DNA of 64,000 nucleotides from positions 744,001 to 808,000 of the forward strand of contig NZ_JAVTSS010000001.1 in assembly GCF_032678705.1 (NCBI RefSeq). The letters are read 5' to 3'. Each line of letters begins with the position of its first letter. Positions within the stretch are counted from its first letter, which is position 1. The notes below the pieces were generated by a model that saw nothing but the letters and a program-made list of their open reading frames with translations, was not told the DNA's origin and made no database searches. A program made the position numbers and the translations under genes. Of this stretch, positions 14,664 to 27,432 are shown in pieces. The DNA comes from Pedobacter frigiditerrae. Lineage in GTDB: Bacteria; Bacteroidota; Bacteroidia; Sphingobacteriales; Sphingobacteriaceae.

Positions 14664-17600
14664 ATGAAAAATTTATCGTTTTCTGCTATAAAAGGATTTC
14701 TAGTTTTAACGCTTATAATTCTTTCTATTTCTACAAAGGCTCAGGTTGCTAAAACTGTTGTTAGAAATTTTAACTTTAAGGTAGATTACGTTTATTACGG
14801 CAAGGCCGATAGTGTTTACCTTTTTATTTATGAGGGAGGTAAATTAGGTGTAAAGGTTGGTCAGCAAGGTAAAGTGTTCGGAACTTATTCTTCTGCTAAA
14901 CCAAATCGCTCACAAAAAGAGCTAGGTTTTAGTACAATTGTTAAAGTAATGGGCGATACTATAATTGCTAAAACAACACTGTATAAGCCCAATATTGCCG
15001 ATGAAAGAGCAATGGCAAATGATTATTTGAGTTTAGATATTAATCTGCCTCAAAACAATTATAATAGTCTATTTTATGACTTAGCATTAATGCAAATCAC
15101 GTTTCTAGATAACTCTAGGGACAAATTATATTCATTAAAGCAAATCCTTACAAAAGATTCAAAGCCTCTTGAAGATTCTATCATTACCAGAAGCATAGTT
15201 GATATTAAATCAATTTATGATATGGTTAAGGATGATGACAAGTATAAGAGTCTTAAGGTGAAAATGACAGATGGGAGGTATAAAGGGAGAACAGTTTTGG
15301 ATGTTATGGCTAAAACAAACAAAACGGATATCATTGGATTCTTGAAATTTGTTAAATCTTATCCTGGTAAATACATTGGAACTAGCTGGAAAATGGGTGA
15401 AGTTTTTGCCACTTGGGTTATCAATAATGCGCCATTAAATAATCAAGAAGTGCTAGATTCTGTAAAACACTATGCAACAGATAAAATAAGGTATGAAAAG
15501 TTCCTTGTAGCAAACAGAAGTATAATTGTTAAAGACGAATATTTAAAATCTTGGGTAGTAATAGCATTGGATAAAACAAATGATGGCAAGAATTTAGAAG
15601 CAGATAACTTATTAAAAGAAACCCTTAAAGCAGGAACGTTTCTAAAAGATACTTCAGGGTTAGGGTTTTATCATTATATACAGGCTCAAATTTATCAAGA
15701 TAAGCAACAATATTTACAGGCTATTGTACATACCAACAAGGCTATTGAGTTTTTTAGGCAATCAAAATATTGGGAATATTATATCAAACTAAAACTTAAA
15801 AGAATTTACATTGAAGTTATGCTTAGTGATTTTGTAGCTGCAACAAAAACTTACAATGAGCTCGAAAATGATTTTAAAGATTACAAAACACAACTTGAAC
15901 CAACTCTATTTACGAGTTTATTGGCACAACATTATGGTTATTATGGTTATTCTCTAAAAAGAAAAGGAGATTTAAATGAAGCTAAAATCTATTATGGAAA
16001 ATCTGCAGATGAATATCAAAAACTCGAAGACTTTTCCAGTAAAGTAGCAAATGCCTTGGCGAGAGAAAATGTTGCCGATATTTTAACGAATCAAAATAAT
16101 TACGAAGAAGCTGTTTCTGTTTACGACTCATTAATAGTGGTTTACAAGACTTTAAATCAATCTGATAAACGCTCGTATGCCATAAATAGTAAAGCTTATG
16201 CTTATAGTAAAATGGGCAAATATGATAAAAACATCGAGTTTGCAAATGAAGCTTTAGCGATTCAATTAAAAACTGAAGATTGGAATAAAGCAGGTTATAG
16301 TTACTCGCAAATAGGTCAATCTCAATGGAGCTTAGGTAAATTTAATGAAGCTGTTGCAGCACATAAACAATCAATTTTATACAGAAAAAAAGGGAATAAT
16401 TTTGAAGGGATGGGTTATTCCTATTCTAAATTAGGTAGTCTGTATATTGAAATTGGCGATAAAGTAAAAGCCATTGCCGCTTTAGATAGTGCTAAAATAT
16501 CCTATACAAAAGCTGGATTAAAAGATAAATTGGCAGAAATAGATGGCTCTATTGGAGATATCTATATAAAAGATAAAAATATTCCAAAAGCAATTGTACA
16601 TTATTTAGCAGCTTATGAAAGCTTAAAAGCACTTGGGCTAAAACAAGAAATGGCAAAGCAATTGTATAATATAGCAGATGCAGCTTATTGGGATGATATG
16701 GTGCAATCTCGTAAATATTATACCTTATCTTATGATTTGTACAAGGCGATTGGTATAAAAGACCAAATGTTATACTGCTTGTTGAATCTTGGGAATTTAG
16801 ATACTAGAGAAAAGAAATATGATAGTGCAGAAAAGTATTTTATTCAGGCATTAGCCATCTCAAAAGAGATTAATGGTAAAAGAGAACAAGCTATAACATA
16901 CAGAAAGTTAGCTGATGCCGCAAATACAAGACTTAATTTAGTGGATGCAATTTCTAAATATGAACAGTCACTAGCTATTTTTAAAGAGATTGACGAGAAA
17001 TCAGAGCAGTCTAGTGTTTTATTATCAATTGGTTACGCTAATGTTTCTTTAGGTAAGTTTAACAATGCTGAAACTGTAATGCAACAAGCGTTGGACATAT
17101 CTAAATCAACAAATAATTATGCCGGCAAGGCCGATGCCTTCGCAGCATTATCAGATTTACATCAGTTAAAAGGAGAATTCACAGAATCTAAAGTGTTGAT
17201 TGATAGTTGTTTTAAAATTTACAAACAGTTGAATAACGCTTATCAAATTGCTAATACACATATTCTTGCTGGTAATTATTACAATAGAATTTCAGATAAT
17301 ATCAATGCCATTAAAAGCTATACAGCAGCAGATAGTCTTTTTAAAGTAGAGAAATCGCCAGATAGTCGCTTTACAACTTTAAACAATATTGGAACGATTT
17401 ATTTTTATCAAGCAGATTATCCACAAGCCTTAAATTATTTTAATCAAGCAAATGCAATTATAAAAGCTCAACCTGTGGTAACAGAAAACACATTGTTGGT
17501 TACTACTAATTTGGGCGAGGTTTATTATCATCAGAAGAACTACATAGAGGCAGAAAAGATTTTGTTATTGTCTTTAAAGCTTTGCAACGAGAAGAATGCA

Positions 17601-19466
17601 GTACGTTCAAAATCTAGTGCTACAATGGTTTTAGGTAAGTTGTATTATGATAAAAAAGATTATGCTAACGCTATTATTAATCTGCAGAATACTTATCAAT
17701 ACTCAAAATCAACAAAAGAAAATAGCCAATTGATAGAATCATCTTTATACTTAGGTAAAGTTGCAATGGCTCAAAAGAAAGATGCAGAAGCTGCTAAATA
17801 TTTTGATGAAGCAATTGTAAATTCGGTTAGGGTAGGAGAAAGCAAAAATTTATGGGAAGCACTTTACAGTCGAGGATTAATGTTTTATAATGAGAATAAA
17901 CTCGATTCTGCCACGGTATATTTTAAAAGAGCAGTAACTAGTGTAGAAGGTACTGGCAAAAATATATTTGGTGGTGCTGCTGCCAAAAAAATCTTTGCTG
18001 CTGATGAGAAAAAAGTAAGTCTTTATAATAATTTAATTTCTACACTCATAAAAGTTGGTAAAACCGATGAGGCATTGGAGTATACAAGTAGAAGTAACAT
18101 TCAAGCCATTAAAGAGAAGATGAATGGAGTTGTTGCCATGAGTAATAATACAGAGAAATCTGCTGCCATAAAACAACAAACTCAATTAACTAATACTGTT
18201 GCATCAGTAGAAGAAAACATAGCCAAAGAAAAGGCAAAACCAGCAGCAGAACAGAATAAAGAAAAAATCGTTTCGCTACAAAAAGTTCAACAATTTGCCC
18301 AGAAGCAATTACTTAACTTTTTAGATAGTATGGTTAAGGTGCATAAAGATTTTAATGATAATTTTACTAAAAGCGTTAATCCAGAGCAGCTTAAAGAATT
18401 TAAGTCTTCTATTCCACCGGAAATGGCGGTATTGCTATACGTAGTTCAAGGCGACCAGCTTATTATTTTTACCTTAACAAACGAAAGTACTAAAGCCAAG
18501 GTGGTGAGTATTAATGGAACAGATTTTTCTGCTCAGGTTAAAGATTTTAGCGTAGCCTTAAAACAGCCATTTAAAGATAAAAATGCGGCTCCATTAAACT
18601 TAAGAGGAGTTAAAGTCACCAATTCAGCACAATCATCTCGTTCTATTGCAGAAACTGGAACTAGTTTATACGAAGCGCTTATCGACCCAATAACAGCAGA
18701 TATTGCTAATAAAACTCAGCTTTGTATTATTAATAATGGCGAATTGAGCAGTATTCCATTTCAAGCTATTGGTAAGAAAAATGACAAGGGAACTTTCAGA
18801 TATTTGGTAGAAGACTATACGATTTTTTACACTAACAGTTTATCAATCTTTACAAAGAAAAAACCTGATTCAATTAAAGGGATGAGTTTTGTTGCTTACG
18901 GCAATCCTGACCATAGCTTGCCAAATGCAGAAAACGAGGTTAAGGAAATCAATAAAATCATAACAACTGCTAAGGTTTACATTGGCGATTCTGCCACAGA
19001 AGATATGGCTCAAGAAAGCCTTGGCTCAAAAAAAATCATCCATTTTGCTACCCATGGTATTTTAGATTACAGTGATTTTTCTAAAACCTTTTTAAAGTTC
19101 GCAAAATCAACTAATAATGATGGTAAATTAACTATACAAGAAATTAAAGGGCTCGAAATTTCAGATTGTGATTTAGTTACCTTATCAGCTTGTGAAACGG
19201 CAGTAACACAAACAGTGAATAAAGGATGGTATGTTTCTCCTGCAAATTCACTTTTAGTAAGTGGGGTAAAATCTGTAGTAGCATCGCTTTGGTCTGTAGA
19301 TGATGAAGCAACAAGTTTGCTAATGAGTGCATTTTACGAAAACATGGGCAAATCTATGCCAAAAGCGCAAGCATTGAGGAAAGCTCAGGAAACCTTAAGT
19401 CACAATCCAAAATTTGCACATCCATTTTATTGGGGAGCATTTATTTTGTACGGAGAGTGGCGTTAA
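14664..19466 (+). CDS. Exported TPR-CHAT protein, putative caspase-like protease
   Basis: A 1600-residue protein with a signal peptide of about 27 residues (ending STKAQ), so it is predicted to leave the cytoplasm. Residues from about 330 to 1100 are a long solenoid of tetratricopeptide repeats (recurring Y, A and G spacing such as ANALAREN and YSKLGSLY). A coiled-coil-rich stretch covers about 1150-1215. A CHAT domain (caspase HetF-associated with TPRs) fills about 1290-1600. The catalytic dyad is predicted at His1464 (HFATHG) and Cys1510 (LSACETA). Soluble CHAT proteins are caspase-like proteases; no substrate or partner gene is recognisable beside it. A weak promoter-like TAATATTG lies shortly upstream. 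Confidence 0.88.
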   Translation: MKNLSFSAIKGFLVLTLIILSISTKAQVAKTVVRNFNFKVDYVYYGKADSVYLFIYEGGKLGVKVGQQGKVFGTYSSAKPNRSQKELGFSTIVKVMGDTIIAKTTLYKPNIADERAMANDYLSLDINLPQNNYNSLFYDLALMQITFLDNSRDKLYSLKQILTKDSKPLEDSIITRSIVDIKSIYDMVKDDDKYKSLKVKMTDGRYKGRTVLDVMAKTNKTDIIGFLKFVKSYPGKYIGTSWKMGEVFATWVINNAPLNNQEVLDSVKHYATDKIRYEKFLVANRSIIVKDEYLKSWVVIALDKTNDGKNLEADNLLKETLKAGTFLKDTSGLGFYHYIQAQIYQDKQQYLQAIVHTNKAIEFFRQSKYWEYYIKLKLKRIYIEVMLSDFVAATKTYNELENDFKDYKTQLEPTLFTSLLAQHYGYYGYSLKRKGDLNEAKIYYGKSADEYQKLEDFSSKVANALARENVADILTNQNNYEEAVSVYDSLIVVYKTLNQSDKRSYAINSKAYAYSKMGKYDKNIEFANEALAIQLKTEDWNKAGYSYSQIGQSQWSLGKFNEAVAAHKQSILYRKKGNNFEGMGYSYSKLGSLYIEIGDKVKAIAALDSAKISYTKAGLKDKLAEIDGSIGDIYIKDKNIPKAIVHYLAAYESLKALGLKQEMAKQLYNIADAAYWDDMVQSRKYYTLSYDLYKAIGIKDQMLYCLLNLGNLDTREKKYDSAEKYFIQALAISKEINGKREQAITYRKLADAANTRLNLVDAISKYEQSLAIFKEIDEKSEQSSVLLSIGYANVSLGKFNNAETVMQQALDISKSTNNYAGKADAFAALSDLHQLKGEFTESKVLIDSCFKIYKQLNNAYQIANTHILAGNYYNRISDNINAIKSYTAADSLFKVEKSPDSRFTTLNNIGTIYFYQADYPQALNYFNQANAIIKAQPVVTENTLLVTTNLGEVYYHQKNYIEAEKILLLSLKLCNEKNAVRSKSSATMVLGKLYYDKKDYANAIINLQNTYQYSKSTKENSQLIESSLYLGKVAMAQKKDAEAAKYFDEAIVNSVRVGESKNLWEALYSRGLMFYNENKLDSATVYFKRAVTSVEGTGKNIFGGAAAKKIFAADEKKVSLYNNLISTLIKVGKTDEALEYTSRSNIQAIKEKMNGVVAMSNNTEKSAAIKQQTQLTNTVASVEENIAKEKAKPAAEQNKEKIVSLQKVQQFAQKQLLNFLDSMVKVHKDFNDNFTKSVNPEQLKEFKSSIPPEMAVLLYVVQGDQLIIFTLTNESTKAKVVSINGTDFSAQVKDFSVALKQPFKDKNAAPLNLRGVKVTNSAQSSRSIAETGTSLYEALIDPITADIANKTQLCIINNGELSSIPFQAIGKKNDKGTFRYLVEDYTIFYTNSLSIFTKKKPDSIKGMSFVAYGNPDHSLPNAENEVKEINKIITTAKVYIGDSATEDMAQESLGSKKIIHFATHGILDYSDFSKTFLKFAKSTNNDGKLTIQEIKGLEISDCDLVTLSACETAVTQTVNKGWYVSPANSLLVSGVKSVVASLWSVDDEATSLLMSAFYENMGKSMPKAQALRKAQETLSHNPKFAHPFYWGAFILYGEWR

Positions 19467-22450: not shown

Positions 22451-23797
22451 CTAGAATATCCCTGTATAATTAAATGGCGTAATTAACTTCAATTCAGCTT
22501 TGATAACATCATTTACATCTAACTCATCAATAAATACTGCCATTGTTTGAGCGGTAATCTTTTGGTTAGTGCGTGTTAAAGCCTTTAATGCTTCATAAGG
22601 ATTTGGATAAGCTTCGCGTCTTAAAACTGTTTGTATAGCCTCGGCAACAACTGCCCAGTTATTTTCTAAATCAGCTTCAATTGCATCATTATTAAGGATG
22701 ATTTTGTTCAATCCTTTTAAAGTAGAACTAATGGCAATAATTGTGTGAGCCATTGGAACGCCAATGTTTCTCAAAACAGTAGAATCGGTTAAATCTCTTT
22801 GTAAACGAGAGATAGGTAGTTTTGCTGCAAAAAATTCGAATAAAGCATTAGCTAAACCAGCGTTACCTTCTGCATTTTCAAAATCGATTGGGTTTACTTT
22901 ATGTGGCATGGCCGATGAACCAACTTCTCCCTCCTTAATTTTTTGCTTAAAATAATTTTTAGAAATGTAGGCCCAAATGTCCCTGTCTAAATCGATAATG
23001 ATATTGTTAATGCGTTTCAAAGCATCACATTGTGCAGCAAATTGGTCGTAATGTTCTATTTGAGTGGTGTATTGAGCTCTGTTTAATCCCAATATTTTAT
23101 TCACGAAGTTATTAGAAAAGTCTACCCAATTTGTTTTTGGATAAGCAATATGATGAGCATTAAAGTTTCCTGTTGCGCCACCGAACTTTGCGCTATTTGG
23201 AATTACCTTTAAGTTTTGCAATTGGATGTTTAATCTTTCTGCAAAAACCATAAACTCTTTACCTAATTTGGTAGGAGAGGCAGGTTGTCCGTGAGTATGA
23301 GCTAATAAAGGAACATTTTCCCATTCCTTAGCTAAAGCAATTATTTTCTCAATTAATTCAGCAATAGCTGGATAATAAGACTCTTCTAATGCTAATTTAA
23401 AAGTATATGGAATAGCAGTATTATTAATGTCTTGAGAAGTTAAGCCAAAATGGATAAACTCTTTATACGGTTGTAAGTTAAGCTCATCAAACTTAGTTTT
23501 AATGAAATACTCAACAGCTTTTACATCATGGTTGGTAATACTTTCGGTATCTTTTACTTGTTGAGCATCTACATCATTAAAGTTTTGATGTATAGCTTTT
23601 AGTTTTGGATAAAGCGAGGTGTCAAAATTTTCTAGGCCAGGAATTTTAGCTTCAACTAATGCGATAAAATATTCTATCTCTACAAAAACACGATATTTGA
23701 TTAAAGCAGATTCAGAAAAATAGTCGGCAAGTTTTGCGGTGGTTTTTCTATAACGGCCATCTACTGGAGATATAGCTTGAAGCGAAGATAAAGTCAT
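22451..23797 (-). CDS. purB: Adenylosuccinate lyase
   Basis: A 448-residue cytosolic enzyme of the fumarase/aspartase superfamily. It acts twice in purine synthesis, cleaving SAICAR and adenylosuccinate with release of fumarate. The superfamily signature GSSAMPHKVNPIDFENAEG near residues 290-308 holds the catalytic Ser in the flexible loop, and LTSQDINNTA near 122 and THGQPASP near 170 form the rest of the active site. Length is normal. It is transcribed alone. Confidence 0.96.
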   Translation of the reverse strand: MTLSSLQAISPVDGRYRKTTAKLADYFSESALIKYRVFVEIEYFIALVEAKIPGLENFDTSLYPKLKAIHQNFNDVDAQQVKDTESITNHDVKAVEYFIKTKFDELNLQPYKEFIHFGLTSQDINNTAIPYTFKLALEESYYPAIAELIEKIIALAKEWENVPLLAHTHGQPASPTKLGKEFMVFAERLNIQLQNLKVIPNSAKFGGATGNFNAHHIAYPKTNWVDFSNNFVNKILGLNRAQYTTQIEHYDQFAAQCDALKRINNIIIDLDRDIWAYISKNYFKQKIKEGEVGSSAMPHKVNPIDFENAEGNAGLANALFEFFAAKLPISRLQRDLTDSTVLRNIGVPMAHTIIAISSTLKGLNKIILNNDAIEADLENNWAVVAEAIQTVLRREAYPNPYEALKALTRTNQKITAQTMAVFIDELDVNDVIKAELKLITPFNYTGIF

Positions 23798-23936: not shown

Positions 23937-24125
23937 CTAGTGAGCTACAGCTGGAGAATCAACTTTTGGTGAATCAACAACTGGTGAATCAACAACTGGT
24001 GAATCAACAACTGGAGAATCAACTGCTGGTGAATCAGTAGCATCTGCTTTTTTCTCAGAGTTACAAGCAGCAACACCTAAAGATAATGCTAAAGCTAAAA
24101 AGCCAAATTTGAATAAGTTTTTCAT
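23937..24125 (-). CDS. Small DSP-repeat lipoprotein
   Basis: A 62-residue predicted lipoprotein. A hydrophobic signal (MKNLFKFGFLALALSLGVAA) ends at lipobox Cys21. The mature 42 residues are almost entirely acidic DSP repeats (six DSP units, four of the five-residue form VVDSP or close to it) encoded by 15-base tandem repeats. Function unknown; the extended repeat suggests a surface or periplasmic spacer, or a highly expressed stress product. Its paralogue lies 96 bases upstream, and both share an unusual promoter motif with the ECF sigma gene. Confidence 0.8.
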   Translation of the reverse strand: MKNLFKFGFLALALSLGVAACNSEKKADATDSPAVDSPVVDSPVVDSPVVDSPKVDSPAVAH

Positions 24126-24160: not shown

Positions 24161-24188
24161 TTAATACTGCAAAGTTAAAAAGGTAACC
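24161..24188 (-). promoter_or_regulatory. Putative ECF promoter of the first DSP lipoprotein
   Basis: On the minus strand the sequence reads GGTTACC (24188-24182), 14 bases, GTATTAA (24167-24161), 35 bases before the ATG. It has the same spacing as the motifs of the sister lipoprotein and the sigma gene. The spacer also contains TAACTTTG, an exact housekeeping -7 box, so dual control or an operator role is possible. Confidence 0.55.
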
Positions 24189-24221
24189 CGCAATTCTGAA
24201 AAAAAATGAAATTATTTTTAT

Positions 24222-24425
24222 TTAATGCTTAATCTTCTCCGAATCGGGGTTTGTTTTTGGTGAATCTATGGCTGGAGAATCAATTTTTGGTGAATCTACG
24301 GTAGGAGAGTCAGTTTTGTTTGGATCTTTTGGCGCAGAATCAGAAGAATTTGTAAACCAACTGCAAGATGTTAAGGATAAGGACAATGCGAAGGCTAAAA
24401 AGCCAAATTTGAATAGATTTTTCAT
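24222..24425 (-). CDS. Small DSP-repeat lipoprotein, paralogue
   Basis: A 67-residue predicted lipoprotein whose signal (MKNLFKFGFLAFALSLSLTS, Cys21) is nearly the same as that of the gene at 23937-24125. The mature part holds five DSP units in a less regular order with Lys and Asn. The near-identical signal peptides with diverged tails point to tandem duplication. Function unknown. It has its own GGTCACC promoter-like motif upstream. Confidence 0.78.
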   Translation of the reverse strand: MKNLFKFGFLAFALSLSLTSCSWFTNSSDSAPKDPNKTDSPTVDSPKIDSPAIDSPKTNPDSEKIKH

Positions 24426-24466
24426 TGTTAATTTTGTTTAAAGGTTAAAATTTTTGGGTTTTTACC

Positions 24467-24494
24467 TTAATGCAAATATTTTTAAAAGGTGACC
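24467..24494 (-). promoter_or_regulatory. Putative ECF promoter of the second DSP lipoprotein
   Basis: On the minus strand: GGTCACC (24494-24488), 14 bases, GCATTAA (24473-24467), 41 bases before the start codon. Each half differs by one base from the motifs of its neighbours; the spacing is identical. Confidence 0.55.
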
Positions 24495-24528
24495 TGCAAA
24501 AACGTGAAATATATTTTTATTTTTTTGG

Positions 24529-24557
24529 GGTTACCATTGTTTATTTTTGGGTATTAA
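24529..24557 (+). promoter_or_regulatory. Distal putative ECF promoter toward the sigma gene
   Basis: GGTTACC (24529-24535), 15 bases, GTATTAA (24551-24557) on the plus strand, about 220 bases before the sigma start. The gap to the proximal copy holds a repeat-like segment with CTGAAAGCGAAGCGAG. A transcript from here would carry a leader of about 215 bases. TATTTTTG within the spacer also fits the housekeeping box. Confidence 0.45.
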
Positions 24558-24589
24558 CGTGTGATATTTTGCACAGAAGATTGTTTTAT

Positions 24590-24665
24590 AAACCTGATGG
24601 AAGTGATATTGAGCAAAGCTGAAAGCGAAGCGAGATTTAACGAACAGCAGGACTAACCTTAATAA
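24590..24665. repeat. Dispersed intergenic repeat fragment
   Basis: The segment around GAAAGCGAAGCGAGATTTAA resembles REP-like phrases elsewhere in the window (3240, 40790, 56760). It separates two copies of the GGTTACC promoter motif. The 353-base gap 24426-24778 holds this, three motif copies and nothing else I can identify. Confidence 0.35.
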
Positions 24666-24750
24666 GATTCACTGTCCTTGCTTTTCTAATCAAAAAAATA
24701 GCTTAAGGATTGTCATTTTATAATTAAAAATTTTTTTTTGTCTATCATTG

Positions 24751-24778
24751 GGTTACCATTCACGTTTAAATGTATTAA
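24751..24778 (+). promoter_or_regulatory. Proximal putative ECF promoter of the sigma gene
   Basis: GGTTACC (24751-24757), 14 bases, GTATTAA (24772-24778), matching the lipoprotein promoters in sequence and spacing. This is the arrangement expected of an autoregulated ECF sigma factor. The predicted transcription start (about 24785) falls at the GTG start codon, so the transcript would be leaderless or begin just inside the frame. Confidence 0.5.
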
Positions 24779-24781
24779 TTG

Positions 24782-25348
24782 GTGAGTTTTAAGTTAAATA
24801 GTTCAGTTCCAACAGATAGAGAGGTAGTATTAGGTATACTTAACAACTCGGAAGAAGCGCTAAATAAGTTGTATGCAGGGTATTATCCGATGGTCTTACA
24901 ATTTATTTTAAACAATAATGGCGATGAAGATGATGCGAAAGATGTGTATCAGGAAGCAATTATTGTTTTATATAACAAAATCAAAACTGGCAACTTTGAG
25001 CTAAGTAGTAAGCTAAAGACGTACATATATTCGGTTAGTCGCCGAATATGGTTAAAGAAACTAGCACAGCATAGCAAAAAGACAAATAACATAGCCGATT
25101 TTGAAGATGTTTTAGTAGTTGATGAAGATGTAGAACAGCATGAACAAAAAGACATGCAGTTTGATAAGATGAAAGTTGCCTTGGAAAGTTTAGGCGAACC
25201 TTGCAAAACGATTATTCAGGATTTTTATATCAATAGTTTATCGATGCAGGATATTTGTGAGAAGTTTGGTTATACCAATACAGATAACGCCAAAACACAG
25301 AAGTATAAATGTTTACAAAGGTTAAAAAAGTTATTTTTTCAATCATAA
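24782..25348 (+). CDS. ECF-type RNA polymerase sigma factor
   Basis: A 188-residue sigma-70 family factor of the extracytoplasmic function group. Region 2 covers about residues 20-90 (DEDDAKDVYQEAIIVLYNKI is the core-binding helix) and region 4 about 125-185, with the helix-turn-helix SMQDICEKFGYTNTDNAKT. An acidic linker (DVLVVDEDVEQHEQ) joins them. The start is GTG at 24782, or TTG one codon earlier; no ATG fits. The membrane anti-sigma-like protease gene begins 1 base after the stop. Upstream motifs suggest autoregulation. Confidence 0.88.
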   Translation: MSFKLNSSVPTDREVVLGILNNSEEALNKLYAGYYPMVLQFILNNNGDEDDAKDVYQEAIIVLYNKIKTGNFELSSKLKTYIYSVSRRIWLKKLAQHSKKTNNIADFEDVLVVDEDVEQHEQKDMQFDKMKVALESLGEPCKTIIQDFYINSLSMQDICEKFGYTNTDNAKTQKYKCLQRLKKLFFQS

Positions 25349-25349
25349 A

Positions 25350-26432
25350 ATGAGGAACGAGATAGAATTAGAAGCGATTATTGAAGATTACTTAAATGGT
25401 AAGCTAACAGCTGATGAGCATAAAGCTTTTGAGCAATTGAGAAATAATGACCCAATTGTTGACCATAAAGTTGTTGCACACAAGGTTTTTTTAGAATCGA
25501 TGAAACAGTATGCTGATGTTTTATTATTGAAACAGCAATTAGATGCTGCCCATGATAAAATTGATGTTGCTGCTATTAGTGCTAAAGTGGCGCCACATCC
25601 ATCTAAAATTGTAAGAATATTTAGAAACAACAAATCTGCAATTGCAGTTGCCGCTTCATTTTTAATATTGGCGATGATTATGTTGTATTCTATACAAAGC
25701 CAAAAAGATGTTGGTTTGCAACAGGTGAAAAGAGATGTTAATGATATTAAAAACGCTCAAGATATTTTAATTAGAAATATTAATAAAACCAAGCCAACAA
25801 CAACTAATACTCAACCAGCTAAATTCGGTGGTACTGGTTTCGCCATTTCAAGTAATGGTTATATTTTAACTAGTTTCCATGTTATAAATGGCAAAGGGTC
25901 TATATATGTTCAAAATAATAAAGGTGAAACTTTTAAAGTTGAACGTGTTTATACTGATATGGTTAATGATATTGCCATTTTAAAAATTAGAGATGATGCA
26001 TTTAAAAACTTAGGAGCTATGCCTTATAGTATCAAAAGAGGTTCGGCTGGTATTGGTGATGCTGTTTATACCTTAGGATATCCGAAAGATGATGTGGTTT
26101 TAGGTGATGGTTATGTGAGTTCTAGAACTGGTTTAAATGGCGATACTGTTGCTTATCAAGTTGCAATTCCTGTTAATCCAGGTAATAGTGGTGGTCCATT
26201 ACTAGATAATAGCGGAAACGTTGTAGGCGTAATTAATGGAAAAGAAACAAAGACTGATGGAGCAGCATTTGCTGTAAAATCTAAATATATAATGGAAGCT
26301 TTAAATGCAATTCCACAAGATTCTTTAAGTAGAAGAGTGGCTTATGGCAAAAGAAGTTCATTACAAGGCTTAAAGCGTAATCAGCAAGTGCAAAAAATAC
26401 AAGATTATGTTTTTATGATTAAAGTGTATTAA
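25350..26432 (+). CDS. Membrane anti-sigma-like protein fused to trypsin-like protease
   Basis: A 360-residue protein with three parts. The cytoplasmic N-terminus (about 1-90, starting MRNEIELEAIIEDYLNGKLT) looks like the short helical anti-sigma segments of Bacteroidota ECF partners. One membrane helix lies at about 96-114. The periplasmic C-terminus (about 155-340) is a trypsin-like (S1C/HtrA-type) protease with an intact triad His177 (TSFHVIN), Asp207 (NDIAILK) and Ser280 (GNSGGP). No PDZ domain is seen. It lies 1 base after the sigma gene. I infer that it holds the sigma factor at the membrane and couples release to its own periplasmic domain; this is not a family statement. Confidence 0.82.
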   Translation: MRNEIELEAIIEDYLNGKLTADEHKAFEQLRNNDPIVDHKVVAHKVFLESMKQYADVLLLKQQLDAAHDKIDVAAISAKVAPHPSKIVRIFRNNKSAIAVAASFLILAMIMLYSIQSQKDVGLQQVKRDVNDIKNAQDILIRNINKTKPTTTNTQPAKFGGTGFAISSNGYILTSFHVINGKGSIYVQNNKGETFKVERVYTDMVNDIAILKIRDDAFKNLGAMPYSIKRGSAGIGDAVYTLGYPKDDVVLGDGYVSSRTGLNGDTVAYQVAIPVNPGNSGGPLLDNSGNVVGVINGKETKTDGAAFAVKSKYIMEALNAIPQDSLSRRVAYGKRSSLQGLKRNQQVQKIQDYVFMIKVY

Positions 26433-26508: not shown

Positions 26509-27432
26509 ATGGAATTTGGAAGAGTTGCAGAAGAAGAAGTGTTAAATGTTGATTTTACTTTGCCAGTAGACGGAGAACAAACCATCCTTACTTTAAAAGA
26601 TAATAAGCCACTCGCTAATCCTGCGTTTTTTGTGGGTTGCGCTAAATGGGGAAGAAAGGAATGGAAAGATTTAATCTATACAAAGAAAACCAAAGAAGCG
26701 GATTTTTTAGGGGAATATGTTAAGCATTTTAACTCTATTGAATTAAATGCTGTTTTCTATAGCATCCCTAAGGAAGAACAAATTGTAAAGTGGGCAGAAA
26801 TGGTGAAGGCAAATACGAATGAAGATTTTATTTTTTGTCCGAAATTTTCTAGAAGCATAACCCATATTAAAAGGTTAAAAGACACTGATTTTTTAACAGA
26901 TGAATATATAAAAGCAATATCTGCCTTTGGCAAATACTTAGGACCTTGCTTTTTGCAGGTAAGTGATAATTTTGGTCCAAATAATATTGGTGTGCTTGAA
27001 GATTACCTACAAAAATTACCAAAAGACTTAAAGGTATTTGTAGAGGTAAGGCATAAAGATTGGTTTGTTGGGGATGCTAAAAATCAATTGTTTGCTATGT
27101 TGGCTAGACAGCAAAAAGGTGCTGCAATTACTGATGCTAGTGGGCGAAGAGATTGTTTACACATGGAATTGCCCACTCCTGAAGCTTTTATAAGATTTGT
27201 TGGTAATGGTGGAGAGTTTATTAAATCTGATGAGGCTAGGGTTGATGAATGGGTAGTGAGGATTAAACATTGGTTGGATAATGGTTTAGAGAAAGTTTAT
27301 TTCTTTTTGCACCAGCATGATGAAGCCGATACACCATTAATTGCAGATTATACAATTGAGCAGTTCAACAAACATTTAGGTAGCGATTTGTCACGGATAA
27401 ATTTTATTCCAAAAAGTAATCTACTACTTTAA
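26509..27432 (+). CDS. DUF72 family protein (YecE-like)
   Basis: A 307-residue cytosolic protein of the DUF72 family, a TIM-barrel fold of unknown biochemical role. Typical segments are VGCAKWGRKEW near residue 43, FNSIELNAVFYSIP near 78, and FCPKFSRSITH near 106. The C-terminal VYFFLHQHDEADTP matches the family's FNN/Hxxxxa region. No neighbour suggests a partner. Confidence 0.85.
   Translation: MEFGRVAEEEVLNVDFTLPVDGEQTILTLKDNKPLANPAFFVGCAKWGRKEWKDLIYTKKTKEADFLGEYVKHFNSIELNAVFYSIPKEEQIVKWAEMVKANTNEDFIFCPKFSRSITHIKRLKDTDFLTDEYIKAISAFGKYLGPCFLQVSDNFGPNNIGVLEDYLQKLPKDLKVFVEVRHKDWFVGDAKNQLFAMLARQQKGAAITDASGRRDCLHMELPTPEAFIRFVGNGGEFIKSDEARVDEWVVRIKHWLDNGLEKVYFFLHQHDEADTPLIADYTIEQFNKHLGSDLSRINFIPKSNLLL

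Follow-up and report, generated by a model that had tools for sequence, protein, structure and literature searches.

A compact, apparently self-activating ECF sigma factor regulon with small lipoprotein genes in Sphingobacteriaceae and at least some Chitinophagaceae

Why does one promoter-like motif occur four times around an ECF sigma factor gene and two small lipoprotein genes? In the window, the stretch of 64,000 nucleotides of Pedobacter frigiditerrae DNA analysed here, the pattern GGTYACC-N14/15-GYATTAA is found in four copies, all inside 618 bp. A preliminary description of this DNA had placed the motif before the sigma gene and before both genes for lipoproteins with D-S-P repeats, and had proposed a small autoregulated ECF regulon with its products encoded next door. 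All four copies were confirmed at the given coordinates and strands, three of them with the same 14-base spacing, and one position could be refined, as the site at 24751-24778 sits at the sigma start codon itself. We consider it likely, with a probability of about 0.87, that the product of the sigma gene at 24782-25348 uses all four as promoters and so would drive its own operon and the lipoprotein genes. The proposed regulon is supported by the near-constant spacing of the sites, their single orientation, their recurrence upstream of sigma and of lipoprotein genes from many genera, the joint presence or absence of sites and sigma gene, and targets unlinked from the locus. The features of the locus are as follows.

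23937-24125, minus strand: lipoprotein A, PG1828 family (NF050142), with D-S-P repeats
24161-24188, minus strand: promoter-like site of lipoprotein gene A, GGTTACC-N14-GTATTAA, 35 nt to the ATG
24222-24425, minus strand: lipoprotein B, PG1828-like (NF050142 score below the family cut-off), with D-S-P repeats
24467-24494, minus strand: promoter-like site of lipoprotein gene B, GGTCACC-N14-GCATTAA, 41 nt to the ATG
24529-24557, plus strand: distal sigma promoter-like site P2, N15, with P1 222 bp downstream
24751-24778, plus strand: proximal sigma promoter-like site P1, N14, with the GTG start 3 nt past the site end
24782-25348, plus strand: ECF sigma factor gene, probably starting with the GTG at 24782 in a frame that opens at TTG 24779
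25350-26432, plus strand: gene of a 360-aa membrane protein with a trypsin/HtrA domain (from profile matches, alignment and a structure model)

The sigma protein matches the sigma70-ECF profile TIGR02937 with 83.1 bits (cut-off 42.9) and PF04542 (Sigma70_r2) with 35.4 bits (cut-off 24), identifying it as an ECF sigma factor. Among the best 25 of the 37 NCBIfam families that it matched at E 0.001 or better, the superfamily model was the only one above its cut-off. Lipoprotein A falls within the Porphyromonas gingivalis PG1828 family NF050142 (57 bits, cut-off 50), whereas lipoprotein B, at 31.5 bits, lies below the same cut-off. On its two sides the locus is bordered by a frame at 22451-23797, which by eye resembles adenylosuccinate lyase, and by another at 26509. 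Elsewhere in the window, a protein of 1600 aa encoded at 14664-19466 contains many TPR-like repeats, and its C-terminal part resembles a CHAT caspase-like domain (by eye).

The motif is commoner in the window than chance would make it. Sixty simulated 64-kb windows, generated with a third-order Markov model fitted to the real sequence, contained one exact match in total (~0.017 per window), compared with four in the real one. A genome-wide scan, which the preliminary description had suggested as a check, showed the pattern to be largely restricted to this locus: the whole genome (4.85 Mb) contains five exact matches, four of them at the sigma locus, and the reversed-pattern control gave two. 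The fifth match (C1:399146-399174) was rejected as a chance occurrence because it lies within an open frame of 636 aa on its own strand. When one mismatch was allowed in the N14 form, three of four genome matches were at the sigma locus and the reversed control returned nine, so a one-mismatch match proves nothing by itself. With bases 7 and 8 left free (GGTTACNNTT-N11/12-GTATTAA), all three genome matches were at the sigma locus and the control returned none. Across the genus, the pattern is present in 99 of 99 genomes, with 436 matches compared with 48 in the reversed control.

The architecture of the sites was analysed in 136 loci that had been fetched by protein similarity and not by the motif, to limit circularity. 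Allowing GGTTAC and GTATTAA to lie anywhere between 2 and 39 bases apart gave 279 pairs, which fell at N15 (224), N16 (44) or elsewhere (11), the spacings here being measured from GGTTAC. Thus 268 pairs occupy two adjacent spacings. In the same loci, 167 of 180 MKN-type lipoprotein genes have a forward site within 80 bp, none has a reversed one, and 13 have neither. Such near-constant spacing and orientation toward the gene are characteristic of ECF promoters. In the consensus built from 220 lipoprotein sites and 88 sigma sites, T is also enriched ~10-17 bases upstream; this set mixes loci fetched by motif and by protein, and 112 unique sites belong to neither class. The regular expressions used for individual loci permitted base variants absent from the first-stage pattern. 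Taken together, spacing, orientation and consensus have the look of a sigma factor promoter.

A different function for the motif deserves consideration. It could be an operator for another regulator, with the housekeeping sigma-A factor transcribing from TAnnTTTG boxes inside the spacers. The preliminary description had raised this possibility as a caveat, and both boxes that it pointed to were confirmed, TAACTTTG within 24161-24188 and TATTTTTG within 24529-24557. GGTTACC is also near-palindromic, and by eye TAnnTTTG occurs in the 95 bp upstream of six of seven motif-less lipoprotein genes. A Pedobacter sub-form of the site, which includes the one at 24161, keeps TAnnTTTG in its spacer, adding up to 46 of the 220 lipoprotein sites compared with 12 expected from shuffled spacers. 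Counted over unique sites, however, the box occurs in just 13 of 177 lipoprotein sites and in none of the 88 sigma sites, and TTTG at a distance of about -33 was seen only once. The comparison with close relatives gives a mixed picture. In L174, whose sigma factor is 99% identical, both boxes of the window are changed and GGTTACC and GTATTAA are retained. The box of site 24529 is also absent in L008, and the box of site 24161 is conserved in L008 and L012. The near-constant spacing and single orientation suit a promoter better than an operator, and within ~1.5 kb the sigma gene is the only frame that resembles a DNA-binding regulator (by eye). The caveat is therefore weakened by the counts and by L174, and it keeps some force through the conserved box at 24161. 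We regard an operator as unlikely. The kept box and the one-mismatch control tell mildly against the promoter reading and slightly lowered our confidence in it. Since the Pedobacter sub-form retains TAnnTTTG, its promoters may be dual, which does not appear to be a general rule.

If the sigma factor reads the sites, the two should occur in the same genomes. A sigma orthologue (E 1e-30 or better) is present in 136 of 151 family genomes. The exact motif was found in 123 of these 136 and in one of the 15 sigma-lacking genomes (Fisher p 1.4e-11, a value that ignores relatedness). Restricting the comparison to genomes with a completeness of 90% or more and a contamination of 5% or less gave 117 of 130 with the sigma gene and one of eight without; seven of the 15 sigma-lacking genomes are less than 90% complete. 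The lone sigma-lacking genome with an exact motif (G023) has the N15 form. All 13 sigma-bearing genomes without an exact motif have a variant site, either upstream of sigma (L096, L098, L099, L103, L104, L105 and L033) or upstream of a lipoprotein gene (L198, L201, L202, L205, L207 and L209); the patterns with base variants were applied to fetched loci, and the sigma-lacking genomes were scanned genome-wide with the exact pattern. The sigma regions had been chosen to span distant genera and motif-negative genomes. All 18 sigma-bearing genomes that were tested gave a match to a lipoprotein model with E 1.5e-12 or better. In the 15 sigma-lacking genomes the model matched once at that level, in a protein running into a contig end, and gave 11 weak matches (E 4.9e-6 to 4.5e-4) and three genomes with none. 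The alignment behind the model held rows from three of the 33 genomes searched (G000, G065 and G066). In two sigma-lacking genomes (L213 and L214), the weakly matching homologue, of 68 aa, lacks GGTTACC within 95 bp. The sigma gene, the motif and the lipoproteins thus seem to be kept or lost as one module. Outside the family, Chitinophagaceae (e.g., Niabella and Taibaiella) also carry the protease gene together with site pairs, some of which have a variant -10 box, and the system is therefore older than the Sphingobacteriaceae family. Among 247 genomes across the phylum, a sigma homologue (E 1e-25 or better) was found in 30; four such homologues that were inspected (L120-L123, 33-35% identity) lack the site.

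The same distribution bears on whether the sites are read by another ECF sigma factor of this genome that has the neighbouring sigma gene as just one of its targets. The initial sigma search of the genome returned 28 candidate places, and overlapping ECF regulons have been suggested for flavobacteria in the part of that work consulted (PMC9723704). The absence of the exact motif from 14 of the 15 genomes without this sigma gene, and the sigma gene's constant position next to the sites, make such an arrangement very unlikely.

Sites away from the sigma locus provide a further line of evidence that the neighbouring sigma factor controls a regulon. Twenty regions were picked by eye from motif listings, nine from genus g4 and 11 from elsewhere. 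In genus g4, all nine fetched regions keep the site before a lipoprotein gene of the same type that is unlinked from sigma, eight on a different contig and one ~544 kb away on sigma's contig. In the other 11, the site precedes DUF4349-like lipoprotein genes (seven), a small lipoprotein gene (one), a DUF2459 gene (one) and other genes (two). A DUF4349-like lipoprotein gene is preceded by an exact site in eight other genomes; one of these proteins was identified by Pfam and the others by eye. The orthologue in this genome (C2:273576-274424, 63% identical) is also unlinked from sigma, and a one-mismatch N14 copy lies 117 bp upstream of it in an intergenic stretch. This copy is supported by its position and not by its rarity, given the reversed one-mismatch control (9 vs 4). 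The gene is likely a further target of the regulon.

These unlinked sites also speak to the weakest alternative. The two lipoproteins are paralogous and their upstream sequences related, so the sites could be functionless by-products of gene duplication, copied along with upstream regions; the sigma-side sites belong to no lipoprotein gene, the spacers vary freely between constant outer boxes, and the site recurs upstream of DUF4349 genes, which makes this explanation hardly credible.

Lipoprotein genes that lack the site, such as the 13 of 180 above, count against the promoter reading. In one inspected set, seven of 16 lipoprotein genes lack the site. The genome encodes a third DSP lipoprotein homologue (L223, G000:C1:1347493-1347681), and by eye its gene has no GGTTACC site upstream. 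In genus g18, three sigma-unlinked lipoprotein paralogues (L224, L225 and L226) lack the site and have TAnnTTTG upstream (by eye), as if they had shifted to the housekeeping sigma factor. Three relatives (L039, L055 and L083) have an N15 site before the gene of a 225-aa protein, which in L083 is a DUF2459 protein; a search for the DUF2459 protein in this genome found no match, which is weak evidence of absence. Of 210 unique small lipoproteins, 164 have a lysine at one of their three C-terminal positions, which is only suggestive of a role like that of Braun's lipoprotein.

The position of P1 provides insight into how the sigma gene may be expressed. The last three bases of the site are an in-frame TAA; sigma can therefore start only at TTG 24779 or GTG 24782. 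A proximal site was found upstream of sigma in 116 of 122 unique loci, Chitinophagaceae included, the 122 being what remained of 136 after removal of 13 duplicate contexts and one locus without a sigma match; two of the six loci counted as site-less (L105 and L192) do show the site in separate readings. Among the 87 closer homologues (at least 55% identity), 86 have the proximal site, 81 have 2-3 bases between the site end and the first in-frame ATG or GTG, and 45 have at least two sites within ~330 bp upstream of sigma. The first in-frame codon is GTG in 82 of the 86 with a site. In the 35 distant sigma loci, the site is present in 30, at offsets of 3 (nine loci), 4 (one), 10-14 (17) and 24 (one), with two left unresolved. 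Because the site ends 2-3 bases from the start codon, the P1 mRNA is possibly leaderless: if transcription starts a few bases past GTATTAA, the message may begin at or next to the GTG. The same proximity counts against this reading, since a start 6-7 bases past GTATTAA would leave the transcript without the GTG. In Flavobacterium johnsoniae, 4-5 nt separate the -7 element from the start at probable promoters, and 87% of the leader sequences are longer than 10 nt (PMC6847099). Leaderless mRNAs account for 5.5% in F. psychrophilum (PMC9723704), and leaderless genes were reported in one of 37 Bacteroidetes/Chlorobi genomes surveyed (PMC3160421), as far as the excerpts of these three papers go. 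A leaderless GTG message, if true, would be unusual. Between P2 and P1 (24560-24750), the segment AGCGAAGCGAGATTTAACG... occurs once in the window and is also present in L174. A structured leader RNA in 24560-24785 was considered and rejected, as the region folds no better than its shuffles (z 0.56).

The protein encoded directly downstream could connect the sigma factor to the envelope. Its gene adjoins sigma in 50 of 50 loci examined. The protein has an N-terminal helical domain (residues 1-80), a hydrophobic helix at ~97-118 (by eye; 86-117 in the model) and a trypsin/HtrA domain, which matches Trypsin_2 with 84.8 bits (cut-off 27.6). The HtrA-type triad H177, D207 and S280 is invariant among 34 aligned sequences, which include partial ones. 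In a model of the full-length protein (mean pLDDT 77.6, pTM 0.55), four helices at the N-terminus are followed by a long one that covers the hydrophobic stretch and then by a protease barrel. The best 50 matches to the model in the PDB (E 9e-13 to 7e-11) include MucD, HtrA1, DegS without PDZ, and AlgW. No PDZ family was among the protein's profile matches, and ~50 residues follow the last barrel strand at 306-310. The conserved C-terminus DYVFMIKVY stands where other HtrA proteases carry their PDZ domain and is modelled as the final strand. The idea that it is a free peptide resembling those of outer membrane proteins was set aside, because residues 354-359 lie in a strand of the model.

The N-terminal 90 residues modelled alone reached a pLDDT of 88.9. 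A fold search with this model returned 13 matches, none significant, with RslA-SigL in the first two places (E 1.6 and 4.0) and MucA-AlgU in the seventh. On re-alignment, RslA (Z 5.8) and MucA (Z 5.4) lead, which may mean little for helices. Pfam gave a single weak and unrelated match to the domain (E 0.09), and a profile search against PDB sequences gave a best E of 0.025 with unrelated names. The gene order, the topology and the weak fold matches make an anti-sigma function our best guess for this candidate domain.

The observations can be combined into a tentative mechanism. GGTTACC would be the -35 element and GTATTAA the -10 element, with 14, sometimes 15, bases between them. The sigma factor would drive its own operon from P2 and P1, as well as the two divergent lipoprotein genes. 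The second protein of the operon would probably tether sigma at the membrane via its N-terminal domain. An envelope signal would lead the DegS-like protease domain, presumably periplasmic, to cleave, and sigma would be released. Release would constitute a positive loop that raises the lipoproteins. Comparison of sequences underlies the architecture and conservation of the sites, their joint presence and absence with sigma, the unlinked sites, the intact triad and the position of the start codon; from these we infer the reading of the sites by sigma, the anti-sigma role, the protease-driven release, the signal and the leaderless translation.

An ECF sigma factor, a membrane partner and an HtrA-type protease make up the sigma-E/RseA/DegS system of E. 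coli and the AlgU/MucA/AlgW system of P. aeruginosa. The present locus has the same kinds of components; its protease model resembles DegS (without PDZ) and AlgW, and the model of its N-terminal domain weakly resembles MucA bound to AlgU, which has the second-best Z score. It is most likely an envelope-stress ECF system of this type with the RseA- and DegS-like parts fused. Unlike sigma-E/RseA/DegS, which has a separate anti-sigma factor and a PDZ protease, it combines the putative anti-sigma domain and the protease in a single 360-aa protein in which PDZ was not found; the promoter boxes also differ, and the exact sites here are confined to the sigma locus.

Among Bacteroidota, the described features of EcfO-Reo of Bacteroides/Phocaeicola are similar in that a sigma/anti-sigma pair has surface lipoproteins (NigD) in its regulon, and different in that Reo spans from the cytoplasm to the cell surface and that the available account mentions no protease (PMC13114119). 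The sigma-ECF class SM6 of Flavobacterium psychrophilum is likewise an ECF-type promoter class of this phylum; from the part of that report seen, its -10 region carries a CGT box, and it targets one sigma/anti-sigma operon and, unlike here, several type IX secretion genes (PMC9723704). Our search of the literature, by titles and abstract openings, found no description of the present system, which we do not claim to be unpublished. A text search for GGTTACC listed matches with unrelated titles.

Our analysis suggests that in Sphingobacteriaceae, and in at least some Chitinophagaceae, the ECF sigma factor activates itself and a compact set of small lipoprotein genes, and the motif is precise enough for sequence-based prediction of targets across genera. 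The full picture is more speculative: a widespread envelope-sensing system of these two families in which the anti-sigma factor and the DegS-like release protease are one chain, the sigma mRNA is leaderless, GTG-started and self-driven, and the lipoproteins are the output and possibly part of what is sensed is conceivable, although we would not bet on all its parts together. The putative fusion and the leaderless start, both inferred, are its most interesting points. With the start codon at such a conserved position, leaderless GTG translation in this phylum is open to direct testing. Class I anti-sigma domains lie beside 6% of Bacteroidetes ECF sigma factors, compared with 32% on average, and the sections of that survey at hand suggest broken synteny or other modes of control (PMC7406223). 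The seeming fusion of an anti-sigma domain with a DegS-like protease would be a concrete candidate for one such other mode of ECF control.
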